From Clostridiales bacterium (GTDB taxonomy: Bacteria; Bacillota; Clostridia; Christensenellales; Aristaeellaceae), in assembly GCA_015056415.1 (NCBI GenBank), contig SVGJ01000025.1:1-34656 (forward strand): a stretch of DNA of 34,656 nt, written 5' to 3'. Position 1 is the first letter of the stretch, and the number at the start of each line of letters is the position of its first letter. Of this stretch, positions 2,758 through 5,974 are shown in pieces. The position numbers and the translations under genes were made by a program. A model generated the notes under the pieces. That model made no database searches. It was not told where the DNA came from and worked only from the letters and a program-made list of their open reading frames with translations.

Positions 2758-3504
2758 TCAGTTTTTGAGGCGTTTGTCGCACTTGATGGAAATCTTTGTA
2801 CCAACGCTCTGGAAAACCTGCACCAGGATCACCAGCACCACCACTGCAAGATACAGCACATACTGATTATACCGGTTGTAGCCGATCTTGATGGCAAGCA
2901 TACCCAGGCCGCCGCCGCCAATGGCACCGCTCATGGCCGTGTAGCCCATGATCGTGGTAATGGCCAGTGTGAAATTGCTGATCAGGGAAGGAACACTCTC
3001 CGGGAGCATCACCCGCAGAAGGATCTGCATGGGGGTCGCACCCATGGATTGAGCAGTCTCGATTATATTGGGATTCACCTCACGCAGGCTGCCTTCCACC
3101 AGGCGGGCCACAAAGGGGAACGCCGCCACCACCAGAGGCACAATAGAGGCTACCGTACCCACCGAGGTGCCGATGATCGTACGGGTCAGCGGAATGACCA
3201 TGACGATCAGGATCAGGAAAGGAATAGAACGCAGCAGGTTGATGATAACGTTCAGGGTCTTCATGATCCACCTGGGTAGGGGGCGAATGCCTTTTTCCTC
3301 GCCCGCCACCAGGATCATGCCCAGAGGCAGGCCGATCACGATAGCAAAGAACGTGGATAAAACAGTCATATACAGCGTATCCCACAGCGCCAGCGGGAAC
3401 TGTTCATAAAGAACCTCCACAGCTTCCTGCATCTTCTTGGGAAGATCGTGTTTCTGCATGACCTCCAGTACTTTTTCGAGGGAGAATAAATCCTGAAAAC
3501 TCAT
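2758..3504 (-). CDS. metI: Methionine ABC transporter permease MetI
   Basis: Membrane permease of the MetNIQ D/L-methionine importer. The 248-residue product has an N-terminal cytosolic extension of about 40 residues and five predicted membrane helices (for example LYMTVLSTFFAIVIGLPLG and NLLRSIPFLILIVMVIPL). The EAA-type coupling loop that contacts MetN is visible as QSMGATPMQILLRVMLPES near residue 165. The GYTAMSGAIGGGGLG segment is characteristic of MetI. The ATG follows the metN TAA with no gap (TAAATG), so expression is translationally coupled. It is the last gene of metQ-metN-metI. The N-terminal extension (FQDLFSLEKVLEVMQKHDL) is longer than in many homologues. Confidence 0.95.
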   Translation of the reverse strand: MSFQDLFSLEKVLEVMQKHDLPKKMQEAVEVLYEQFPLALWDTLYMTVLSTFFAIVIGLPLGMILVAGEEKGIRPLPRWIMKTLNVIINLLRSIPFLILIVMVIPLTRTIIGTSVGTVASIVPLVVAAFPFVARLVEGSLREVNPNIIETAQSMGATPMQILLRVMLPESVPSLISNFTLAITTIMGYTAMSGAIGGGGLGMLAIKIGYNRYNQYVLYLAVVVLVILVQVFQSVGTKISIKCDKRLKN

Positions 3505-4530
3505 TTACTCTGCCTCCTTTGCTGCATAGTTAACTTCGACCGAGACGGTCACATCCGGGGTGGCCCGCAGGAAGTTGACCGCCTTGGCCAGCTCGTCGGG
3601 GCCGCCGGGGATCTCCAGCAGGATGTAGCCATAGGCACGCTCGCCCACCGAACGGGTGGAGGCGCCCAGAATGCTGGCCGCCACGCCCACCTCCATGGCC
3701 ATTTGGGCAATGAGGGGCGTTCTGGCAGCGGGACCGCCATTGAAGATGATGCGCACACGCTGACCGTGCTCGTCGCTGATAGCCGCGCTGTCCGCCATCT
3801 CGGGGTAGACCAGGTTACGGGTCGCCTCCGCCTTGGGATTGGCGAACACCTGCGCGACCTCGCCCTCTTCCACGACCTCGCCGTGCTCCAGAATAGCCAC
3901 ACGGTTGCAGATCTCCTGCACCACGCTCATCTGGTGGGTGATCACGATCACGGTGATGCCCAGCTTTTTGTTGATATCGCGGATCAGGTCAAGGATCTGA
4001 TGGGTGGTCTTGGGGTCAAGGGCGCTGGTGGCTTCGTCGCAAAGCAACACCTCCGGATTCGTAGCCAGCGCACGGGCAATGGCTACGCGCTGCTGCTGGC
4101 CGCCGGAAAGCTGCGCGGGATAGGCATTGGCCTTATCCGGCAGGCCGACGATCTCCAGCAGTTCGCGGCCGCGCTTCTCCGCCTCGGCCTTGGGCACGCC
4201 GGAAAGGCGCAGCGGCAGGATCACGTTCTTCAGACAGGTGCGCTGCATCAGCAGGTTGAAGCCCTGGAAGATCATCGTCACCGTGTGGCGCACCTCCCGC
4301 AGCTCCTTTTTGTTGAGCGCGCCCAGGTCACGGCCATCCAGCAGGATATTGCCCTCGGTGGGGCGTTCCAGCATATTGATGCAGCGCACCAGCGTGCTCT
4401 TGCCGGCGCCGCTCATGCCAATGATGCCGTAAATATCGCCGTTATTGATGGTCAGGTTCACGTTTTTCAGCGCGTCCACCGGGCCATCGGAGGTGACGAA
4501 GCTCTTGGACAGGTTGCGAATCTCGATCAT
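3505..4530 (-). CDS. metN: Methionine ABC transporter ATP-binding protein MetN
   Basis: Cytoplasmic ATPase that drives methionine import with MetI. The 341-residue length fits the family. Residues 1-240 are the ABC domain: Walker A GMSGAGKST (38-46), Q-loop in MIFQGFNLL, signature LSGGQQQRVAIARAL, Walker B VLLCDEATSALDP and H-loop VIVITHQMS. Residues about 255-341 form the C-terminal NIL (ACT-like) domain. In characterised MetN this domain binds methionine and inhibits transport when the amino acid is abundant; the segment from RIIFNGGPAARTPLIAQM to the C-terminus matches it. Import would therefore be controlled both after translation by NIL and, through the leader, at transcription. A hairpin separates it from metQ. 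Confidence 0.97.
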   Translation of the reverse strand: MIEIRNLSKSFVTSDGPVDALKNVNLTINNGDIYGIIGMSGAGKSTLVRCINMLERPTEGNILLDGRDLGALNKKELREVRHTVTMIFQGFNLLMQRTCLKNVILPLRLSGVPKAEAEKRGRELLEIVGLPDKANAYPAQLSGGQQQRVAIARALATNPEVLLCDEATSALDPKTTHQILDLIRDINKKLGITVIVITHQMSVVQEICNRVAILEHGEVVEEGEVAQVFANPKAEATRNLVYPEMADSAAISDEHGQRVRIIFNGGPAARTPLIAQMAMEVGVAASILGASTRSVGERAYGYILLEIPGGPDELAKAVNFLRATPDVTVSVEVNYAAKEAE

Positions 4531-4606: not shown

Positions 4607-5476
4607 TTACTTGACGGTCAGGGCAGTCAGGTCGGTCTGCTTGCCGCCGTACAGGCCCATGGGCTCCACGTGGATGGGAGCAACCACCACGATGTTGGTG
4701 CCGTTCTCGGCATTGAAGTTATCCTGATAGGGGATGTGAGCGAAGTAGTTGGCAAACACCTCGCCGCTCTCCACCACCATGTTGGGCTGCACATAGTCAG
4801 AGAACTCGATGACATCCAGGGTGATGTTCTTCTCGGCCAGGATCTCGGCGGCCACGTCCAGGATCTGGGCATGGGGGGTGGGAGAAGCAGCCACGGTGAT
4901 GGTCTTGCCATCCAGAGCGGCGTAATCCACGGTGGCGTCGAAGCCATCGGTGGGATTCTCCACAACGGACACGGCGGCGCCGGCATAGGTGGCGGTGATG
5001 TAATCAGCGACCTTCTGGCTGTACAGAGCGGCGGCCAGGGCCTTGGCCTCGGCGCTCTCCTCGTTGCCGGCCTTCACGCACAGCACGTTGGAGTAGGGGG
5101 AATCAGCGTTCTCGATCACCAGGGAATCCGCCACGGGATTCAGGCCGGCGTCCAACGCGAAGTTGTTGTTGATGATGGCATAGTCCACGTCCGCGCGAAC
5201 GTTGGGAACCATGGCAGCCTCAACCTCCTGGAACTCGATGCCCAGGGGATTCTCGATCACGTCGTCCTTGGTGGCGGTAACGCCGGCCTCGGGCTTCAGC
5301 TTGATGTAGCCGTTGGCTTCCAGCAGCTTCAGGGCGCGGCCCTCGTTGGTGGGATCGTTAGGCACGGCGATGGTGATGGTCTTCTGGGCGGGCTTCAGGG
5401 CGCCGGTGGCGACGATGACCACAGCAGCCGCAACTGCGATGAGCGCGATGATGATGAGCAGAGTCTTTTTCTTCAT
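4607..5476 (-). CDS. metQ: MetQ/NlpA-family methionine-binding protein with circularly permuted halves and no lipobox
   Basis: Extracellular substrate-binding protein of the methionine importer, 289 residues. AAAGGAG lies 9 bases before the ATG. The two halves are in the reverse order of known MetQ proteins. Residues 33-175 match what is normally the C-terminal half (IAVPNDPTNEGRALKLLE, DDVIENPLGIEFQEVEAA, YAIINNNFALDAGL, ADSPYSNVLCVKAG). Residues 191-289 match the normal N-terminal half (ITVAASPTPHAQILDVAAE, VIEFSDYVQPNMVV, ANYFAHIPYQDNFN, HVEPMGLYG). The polypeptide ends where the canonical protein would cross into IAIPND. Both halves start with KTIT[IV]A. The N-terminus MKKKTLLIIIALIAVAAAVV is a hydrophobic signal or anchor with no lipobox cysteine; the only cysteine is internal. 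The family assignment is firm; the permutation is read directly by comparison with remembered E. coli and B. subtilis MetQ. Confidence 0.93.
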   Translation of the reverse strand: MKKKTLLIIIALIAVAAAVVIVATGALKPAQKTITIAVPNDPTNEGRALKLLEANGYIKLKPEAGVTATKDDVIENPLGIEFQEVEAAMVPNVRADVDYAIINNNFALDAGLNPVADSLVIENADSPYSNVLCVKAGNEESAEAKALAAALYSQKVADYITATYAGAAVSVVENPTDGFDATVDYAALDGKTITVAASPTPHAQILDVAAEILAEKNITLDVIEFSDYVQPNMVVESGEVFANYFAHIPYQDNFNAENGTNIVVVAPIHVEPMGLYGGKQTDLTALTVK

Positions 5477-5540
5477 GGTGATCTCTCCTTTGTTAATATG
5501 TATAGATACCTATGAACCATTTCAGAACCCCGGTGCGCAG

Positions 5541-5597
5541 TCACATTCGTCTGCTGCATCGGTTTGTCCGAATCACGAGCCACGCCATATTGTTCAT
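5541..5597 (-). CDS. Possible second short leader ORF (18 residues)
   Basis: An ATG with AAAGGAG 8 bases upstream opens an 18-codon frame, MNNMAWLVIRTNRCSRRM, ending at TGA 64 bases before metQ. It lies after the leader terminator, so it would be transcribed only in read-through RNA. It has three Met codons, one Cys and four Arg. Its role is unknown: it could couple translation into metQ, add a second sensing step, or be a minor peptide. The good ribosome site is the main support. Confidence 0.45.
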   Translation of the reverse strand: MNNMAWLVIRTNRCSRRM

Positions 5598-5634
5598 GGC
5601 ATTTACTCCTTTCACCTTAAGGGATGAACCCGAT

Positions 5635-5667
5635 AAAAAAGAGGGAGCCTCCGATGAAGCTCCCTTC
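5635..5667 (-). terminator. Leader terminator (attenuator) upstream of metQ
   Basis: Minus-strand GGGAGC-TTC / GAG-GCTCCC (outer six pairs perfect, inner three including one G.U) is followed by TC and six T residues. It sits 41 bases after the Met-rich leader ORF and 159 bases before metQ. A strong U-tract terminator between a promoter and an amino-acid transporter gene is the hallmark of attenuation. Confidence 0.88.
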
Positions 5668-5728
5668 TCGACCGGATGCCTGCCGCAGGATTCAGCGGTG
5701 CGTCCGTTTATCTGAAAGCCCATCGAAG
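5649..5728 (-). promoter_or_regulatory. Candidate antiterminator pairing in the metQ leader
   Basis: Leader RNA CUUCGAUGGG (5719-5728, codons 24-27 of the leader peptide) can pair over 10 contiguous bases, three of them G.U, with UUCAUCGGAG (5649-5658) in the loop and inner stem of the terminator. The two structures exclude each other. A ribosome held at the Met cluster (codons 7-18) would leave codons 24-27 free; a ribosome reaching the stop would cover them. Confidence 0.6.
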
Positions 5729-5797
5729 ATTGACACGCGAAGCCATGCACATGCTGCACATGCGCATCATCATGGACATCGTCGCGGTGTTCTTCAT
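5708..5797 (-). CDS. Methionine-rich leader peptide of the metQNI operon
   Basis: A 29-codon ORF with AAGGAG 9 bases before its ATG, about 26-28 bases after the expected transcription start. Eight of 29 residues are Met, and seven Met plus two Cys fall in residues 7-18 (MSMMMRMCSMCM). The ORF ends at TAA, 41 bases before the terminator stem. In established attenuators (trp, his, thr, leu) a run of the regulated amino acid in a short leader ORF just ahead of a terminator senses the charged tRNA. Here the downstream genes encode a methionine importer, so the codon content matches the operon function. Codons 24-27 contain the antiterminator strand. No homologue is recalled; the function is inferred from layout. 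Confidence 0.85.
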   Translation of the reverse strand: MKNTATMSMMMRMCSMCMASRVNLRWAFR

Positions 5798-5829
5798 GGT
5801 GCTTTCTCCTTCCCTCAGATGATATGGGA

Positions 5830-5859
5830 ATCATACCACATTTTTGCTCAAACTGTCAA
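5830..5859 (-). promoter_or_regulatory. Consensus sigma-A promoter of the metQNI leader
   Basis: Minus-strand TTGACA (5854-5859), an 18-base spacer and TATGAT (5830-5835), with TGG before the -10 giving an extended -10. Transcription should start near 5823-5825, about 26-28 bases before the leader-peptide ATG. Confidence 0.85.
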
Positions 5860-5945
5860 CCAATTTGCTTGTTTTCCGCTTGTTTTTCTCTCCTCATGAC
5901 GAACCGCCCGCCAAAACATAATTTTGTAAAATTTTCGCAAAACCC

Positions 5946-5974
5946 TTGCAACATATATCCATTCCTACTATAAT
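5946..5974 (+). promoter_or_regulatory. Sigma-A promoter of the L,D-transpeptidase gene
   Basis: TTGCAA (5946-5951), a 17-base spacer and a perfect TATAAT (5969-5974), 48 bases before the ATG at 6023. It is divergent from the metQ promoter with about 90 AT-rich bases between. Confidence 0.85.

Follow-up and report, generated by a model that had tools for sequence, protein, structure and literature searches.

A probable methionine-codon attenuator and a second conserved upstream ORF precede a methionine transporter operon in gut Clostridia

Leader-peptide attenuation is textbook biology for Trp, His, Thr, Leu, Phe and Ilv, and its classical cases are the his, trp, thr, leu, phe and ilv systems of Proteobacteria. 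Control of the methionine genes of Gram-positive bacteria, the Bacillota among them, is attributed to S-box and T-box RNAs and to repressors. The leader described here lies ahead of a methionine transporter operon in an uncultured gut Clostridia bacterium (genome 84% complete) and has the parts of the classical attenuators: a leader ORF (ORF1) with control codons, a terminator, an exclusive antiterminator and an arrangement in which the position of the ribosome would decide between the two. It differs from the classical cases in its control codons, which are Met together with Cys, often alternating with other codons, in its Clostridia host, and in the presence of a second conserved ORF (ORF2) behind it. 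The classical his case is described in PMC9413887, and two papers predict histidine attenuators in Gram-positives as well, at hisS*/hisZ in Firmicutes (PMC2965389) and at the his operons of the B. cereus group, Eubacteriales and Erysipelotrichales (PMC9413887). These resemble the ORF1 system in using leader-peptide attenuation in place of T-boxes but carry histidine codons, and we saw no methionine case among them. The cysteine-codon leader ORFs of Mycobacterium, Propionibacterium and Bifidobacterium (PMC1262725) likewise place codons for a sulfur amino acid in a short upstream ORF; however, they have cysteine runs near the stop and the mycobacterial regions are without a conserved terminator hairpin, whereas in our leader Met dominates and both terminator and antiterminator are present. 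For the methionine operons of Actinobacteria the same paper reports no conserved RNA structures. No described methionine leader peptide was found in the open-licence PMC literature. The mechanism proposed for ORF1 is a known one, and what is new is the amino acid, which we have not found described for it, the host group, and the second conserved ORF in series.

The window, as we call the whole 34,656-nt stretch of DNA that was analysed, carries on its minus strand, from 5859 to 5476, a promoter, ORF1 with its ribosome site, a terminator, ORF2 with its ribosome site and metQ, in that order, with metN and metI behind (Table 1). A first-pass annotation made from the sequence alone had read here a consensus promoter, a 29-codon ORF with a good ribosome site, eight Met codons of which seven, with two Cys, fall in codons 7-18, and a terminator followed by the metQ operon, and all of these readings held. 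The ORF1 peptide, MKNTATMSMMMRMCSMCMASRVNLRWAFR, has 8 Met (codons 1, 7, 9, 10, 11, 13, 16 and 18) and 2 Cys (codons 14 and 17), and the terminator, which begins 42 nt past the ORF1 stop, consists of a 10 bp stem with a 4-nt loop followed by CTTTTTT. At its hydrophobic N-terminus, MetQ of the window (5476-4607, minus strand) lacks the lipobox cysteine that is usual in the MetQ lipoprotein family, and a transmembrane segment may serve as its anchor.

Table 1. Leader features and operon genes in the window
Feature	Position	Strand	Basis
Promoter, sigma-70 type, TTGACA-18-TATGAT, extended -10 TG	5830..5859	-	11/12 consensus matches
Shine-Dalgarno of ORF1, AAGGAG	5806..5811	-	sequence inspection
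ORF1, Met/Cys-rich leader peptide, 29 codons, control codons 7-18	5708..5797	-	conserved in relatives
Region 1 (protector), GAAAGCACCATGAAGA, around ORF1 start; pairs with region 2	5791..5806	-	fold, duplex energy, covariation over 16 clusters
Region 2, TCTTCGATGGGCTTTC, ORF1 codons 23-28; partner is region 1 or region 3	5714..5729	-	duplex, alignment, covariation
Intermediate hairpin region, ORF1 stop to terminator	5671..5707	-	folds; by eye in alignment
Region 3, terminator 5' arm and loop, AGGGAGCTTCATCGG	5651..5665	-	terminator scan, duplex, covariation
Intrinsic terminator, stem-loop 5665..5642 and U-tract 5641..5632	5632..5665	-	terminator scan
ORF2, second conserved upstream ORF, MNNMAWLVIRTNRCSRRM and stop, end CGA-AUG-UGA	5541..5597	-	comparison among metQ and metY leaders
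metQ, methionine-binding protein of ABC transporter	4607..5476	-	best NCBIfam model MetQ/NlpA, below NCBI's own cut-off
metN, ATPase	3505..4530	-	best NCBIfam model MetN, below NCBI's own cut-off
metI, permease	2758..3504	-	best NCBIfam model MetI, below NCBI's own cut-off

No Rfam family matched anywhere in the window at gathering scores, nor did any match positions 5460-5960 at E <= 5, and neither the SAM riboswitch (S-box, RF00162) nor the T-box (RF00230) covariance model matched at the leader, in agreement with the earlier impression that no S-box or Met T-box was visible. Both kinds of RNA are in use in this genome, though not at metQ: there is one SAM riboswitch, before metK, and there are 13 T-box matches, none of them on the window's contig, C22. 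S-box and Met T-box controls act on the same class of gene and have the same output as the leader in the window, a premature terminator, but differ from it in these respects. An S-box, a T-box or another known RNA family was also rejected as the control of metQ in relatives, since 60 related loci have no SAM riboswitch or T-box upstream; the T-boxes of L058 and L079 sit downstream of metQ.

The first-pass reading predicted that the Met codons would be conserved in relatives, and this is what we found. The regions upstream of metQ were taken from the best 80 of 123 named MetQ relatives and from the genus genomes, giving 87 regions after de-duplication, of which 86 could be scored for ORF1 (one region of 1 nt was left out). 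A Met/Cys window score of at least 6 was reached in 46 of the 86, compared with none of 430 dinucleotide shuffles and none of the 86 antisense strands, the scan covering at most 700 nt in real regions and up to 900 nt in controls. At the lower score of 4.5 ORF1 is present in 50 of the 87 metQ-type regions, its start being chosen partly by ribosome-site score, and is absent from the other 37, some of which are truncated. Labels among the 50 records include Oscillibacter, Christensenella, Gemmiger, Neglectibacter, Ruminococcus and Candidatus Coliplasma. Of the 49 loci with sufficient sequence, 48 have a promoter of no more than three mismatches in the 110 nt ahead of ORF1 (shuffled rate 0.115), and a terminator follows ORF1 in 46 of the 50 loci by scan, the other four having been assigned by pattern.

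Within the genus, a profile of ORF1 matched all 18 genomes, with 21 matches at a permissive E <= 0.1, 18 of which adjoin a metQ match and lie directly upstream of it. The remaining three comprise a match before metN-metI-metQ in G007, where the gene order differs, a match at a contig end and an orphan copy. As ORF1 stands before metN-metI-metQ as well as before metQ-first operons, it tracks the methionine transporter operon despite the changed gene order. The apparent orphan ORF1 (L256, G006:C74:485-565) ends in CGAATGTGA, has no evident methionine gene behind it on the same strand and is perhaps a remnant. Three MetQ paralogues of the genus that are about 30% identical to MetQ of the window (L017, L020 and L022) have an ORF1, a terminator and an ORF2 (GVCDRM) of their own; a further paralogue, L019, is without this set. 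Beyond the genus, the profile recovered only the window's own copy from an evenly drawn sample of 151 genomes of the order and, at E <= 0.01, the window's own copy and one doubtful match inside a 428-aa frame from 391 evenly drawn genomes of the class; the profile is short and insensitive, genus members themselves scoring down to E = 0.06, and absence from the order and class samples is therefore not proved.

The end of ORF1 is able to pair either with region 1 or with region 3, and these mutually exclusive pairings are held by covariation across 16 clusters of loci. The 2:3 pairing in the window, between the ORF1 end and the terminator arm and loop, had been noticed at first pass as possible; it comprises 12 pairs including G-U, with one bulge, at -14.1 kcal/mol (z -1.96 against shuffles), and the 1:2 duplex, computed over wider regions, reaches -28.5 kcal/mol (z -3.57). 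Over the 50 loci the mean z against shuffles is -1.75 for 1:2 and -1.45 for 2:3, with z < -1 in 33 and 35 loci, respectively; in the other 17 and 15 (z > -1) the pairing is no clear improvement on shuffles. The loci were grouped into the 16 clusters to lower relatedness, and native partners were compared with partners swapped among the representatives. Native partners were superior for 1:2 (mean z -1.13, p = 5e-4) and, as the first-pass reading had anticipated, for 2:3 (mean z -1.12, p = 8e-5), and the control pairing 1:3 gave z +0.23 (p = 0.89). In the 16 representatives, complementarity to regions 1 and 3 is highest in windows whose centres lie 12-15 nt ahead of the last base of the stop codon, a place that, from the size of the ribosome footprint, a ribosome at the stop codon would occupy. 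The last Met codon of the block starts at a median of 39 nt before the ORF1 stop (range 12-69, 50 loci). In the genus alignment the nucleotides of region 2 are kept although the reading frame differs (..RWAFR in L001, ..MGFQ.. in L027 and L051), so that region 2 is evidently kept as RNA; the Met block, on the other hand, is kept as codons, and this is the division of labour expected of an attenuator. Parts, conservation, both covariations and placement relative to the stop codon are all features of the sequences themselves.

From these features we infer that ORF1 is translated, that stalling within it permits read-through and that the response is to methionine or cysteine; in our judgment the leader is very probably a methionine-specific, ribosome-mediated transcription attenuator that probably reads cysteine as well. 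The transcript would begin just upstream of ORF1, and a ribosome would load onto ORF1. With ample charged tRNA-Met, the ribosome at the ORF1 stop would cover region 2, leaving region 3 to pair with region 4 and transcription to terminate before metQ. With Met-tRNA or Cys-tRNA scarce, the ribosome would halt within codons 7-18 and leave region 2 free to capture region 3 before region 4 is synthesised; the terminator would be pre-empted and metQNI transcribed. Were ORF1 untranslated, region 1 would hold region 2 and the terminator would form, termination in the absence of translation thus being due to the 1:2 protector pairing. The attenuator account given at first pass is supported in its core by conservation and covariation, but it lacked the 1:2 protector, the hairpin between the stop and the terminator, and ORF2.

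Folding of the RNA as it would stand before region 4 is made is consistent with such a switch. When a ribosome is placed on the Met block of the ribosome-free RNA, mean 2:3 pairing in the 16 representatives increases from 0.32 to 0.56 (p = 2e-4), and in the window from 0.00 to 0.73. Stalling raises the pairing by more than 0.05 in 11 of the 16 and by at most 0.01 in the other five, of which L031, L052 and L074 have regions 2 and 3 paired with or without the ribosome and L063 and L101 have them hardly paired in either state. At equilibrium with a stalled ribosome the terminator of the window still dominates (0.83), so the switch must be kinetic; kinetic capture is a feature of known attenuators. 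In the stop-codon state region 2 is kept from pairing by the set-up itself, so that this state provides no independent evidence.

It might be argued that the ORF1 peptide is itself the sensor, with MxMxMCxMCM binding a ligand, for example the soft metal copper(I), or arresting the ribosome as a nascent chain. Met- and Cys-rich motifs are binders of soft metals, and the majority consensus of 36 ORF1 peptides includes MxMxMxMCxMCM, in which the Met positions are more regular than codon content alone demands. We nonetheless regard this as improbable: in the same 36 peptides the residues between the Met vary and the spacing shows insertions, the genes observed behind ORF1 are methionine transporter genes, and metY in two loci, with none metal-linked, and region 2 lies just before the stop codon, the position needed by a codon-starvation attenuator. 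None of the 36 peptides has an NCBIfam family at E <= 1. Slimmer still is the chance that the switch senses cysteine, or sulfur supply in general, more than methionine, with the Met codons merely accompanying the Cys codons. Cys is the third commonest residue of ORF1 after Met and Arg in the 16 cluster representatives, and ORF2 in other genomes precedes metY, a sulfur-assimilation gene; however, Met is twice as frequent (0.212 against 0.096 for Cys), all 50 ORF1 peptides have at least four Met after the start while some are without Cys, and the operon is by best family match a methionine transporter. That the leader is an untranslated RNA element or a constitutive 5' terminator with a coincidental Met-rich frame is hardly credible, for although it folds well (z -4.40 against shuffles), no shuffle reached the ORF1 score, 50 loci share the Met block and the start codon (with starts partly picked by ribosome-site score) and no Rfam family matches.

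If ORF1 is, as we prefer, a codon-starvation attenuator, the read-through RNA would then include ORF2, which lies between the terminator and metQ and is preceded by AAAGGAG. The octamer CGAATGTG occurs in 41 of the 87 metQ upstream regions, compared with 0.01 expected per region, and in 38 of the 87 when only sequence past the ORF1 terminator is searched or, in regions lacking ORF1, the final 400 nt; the variants CGAATGCG and CGAATGTAA terminate further ORFs of this type. ORF2-type ORFs, often (L/V)xRxN(F/W/Y)RxGRM, also occur in other families of the class before a metY-like gene, which from its sequence we take to be an O-acetylhomoserine sulfhydrylase. Among 30 metY loci chosen by protein similarity, the motif not being a criterion, ORF2 was found in 15 of 24 anchored loci when CGAATG was required and in 17 of 30 without a codon requirement. 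The Arg codon was then considered in 117 regions (30 metY, 87 metQ) with no codon imposed: the Arg of Arg-Met is encoded by CGA in all 45 ORFs carrying the upstream Asn, and in 20 of the 29 others, these 20 including the ORF1 peptide ends in L020, L022, L081 and L083. All nine exceptions are RM pairs inside ORF1 peptides. The two bases after CGAATG are T (0.84) and G (0.95) over 63 distinct contexts. Peptide and codon thus both seem, on comparative grounds, to be constrained, and there are, as in arrest peptides, conserved C-terminal residues at the presumed arrest site.

A search for the ORF2 motif in 291 genomes gave 45 matches in 36 genomes, of which 30 became loci (15 matches without a locus were left out), and in ten of the 30 a short ORF2 with a ribosome site precedes metY (eight), metQ (the window) or a lipoprotein gene (one), the other 20 being unused. 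A second search used a pattern looser than intended, with AGA allowed at the Arg codon, and matched 119 of 391 genomes, many by chance. Fifty loci from it were viewed, 30 as returned and 20 selected for the form GG.CGAATG, some of them repeating loci of the 291-genome search and of the 30-metY set; in 23, with genes named by eye, ORF2 stands before metY (20), a MetQ-like gene (two, L236 and L242) or another ABC binding protein (one, L237), and 27 were dropped. From the ORF2 stop to the gene is 30-105 nt in the 23 loci and 51-71 nt in 18 of them, and by eye no common hairpin is found in this interval. ORF2 of L163 runs on as RNYRNGRMCLCMCTR, and between it and metY there is a hairpin resembling a terminator; in this genome ORF2 may therefore act as an attenuator. 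An ORF1-like peptide lies upstream of ORF2 in two metY leaders, L158 (by eye) and L168. ORF2 was rejected as one half of a local RNA hairpin, CATTCG occurring within 200 nt in 5 of 63 contexts with 5.1 expected. A Rho device is not supported, since C is not abundant in the 50 nt that follow the motif (0.23; metY 0.13). Fourteen ORF2 loci had no Rfam match at gathering scores, and four ORF2 peptides no NCBIfam match at E <= 1.

Two other kinds of sequence were seen around these leaders. Between the promoter and ORF2 in L156-L160, ACATACTAAACATATAGGTATTAT-like sequences recur near the -10 of metY promoters, and a similar one, CATAGGTATCTATACATAT, lies just before metQ of the window; they look like operators for an Rrf2/CymR-type repressor. 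In L140 (G274) and L141 (G193), which belong to one genus and have no leader ORF at either locus, AACTTACTCAGCGAACGAATGTG and close variants recur with five and three matches, probably as a repeat of another kind.

SpeFL is an upstream ORF at which ribosomes arrest in a ligand-dependent manner. PMC8429421 places TnaC in the same category. By analogy, ORF2 resembles the two in being a short upstream ORF with conserved last residues, and it differs from them in having a signature of its own, an RM end with an invariant CGA codon, which we did not find described in the open-licence PMC literature. ORF2-type ORFs lie before metQ and metY in many Clostridia (the metY loci being within L143-L163, L165-L194 and L202-L243) and are possibly a separate regulatory family. 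Our preferred guess as to how ORF2 would act is ribosome arrest at CGA-AUG. It is tempting to go further and suggest, tentatively and with slightly less than even confidence, that Clostridia control methionine uptake and synthesis by two upstream ORF devices in series, the Met/Cys codon attenuator of ORF1 and, in ORF2, with its N-containing peptide and Arg-Met encoded by CGA-AUG, mostly followed by UG, a new class of translational sensor. The arrest, as a rule about 50-70 nt ahead of metY or metQ, might come from a slow CGA codon occupying the P site while the Met codon is in the A site, or else from methionine or S-adenosylmethionine bound by the nascent chain.

Attenuation that responds to methionine, and perhaps to cysteine, in various gut Clostridia would, if true, close a gap among the amino acids known to be sensed by this mechanism. 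It would also raise the question of how elongator Met-tRNA can be sensed on AUG codons although AUG also starts most proteins. Finally, ORF2, common to metQ and metY leaders across several families and with an invariant at the level of the codon, points to a further layer of control over the supply of sulfur amino acids.
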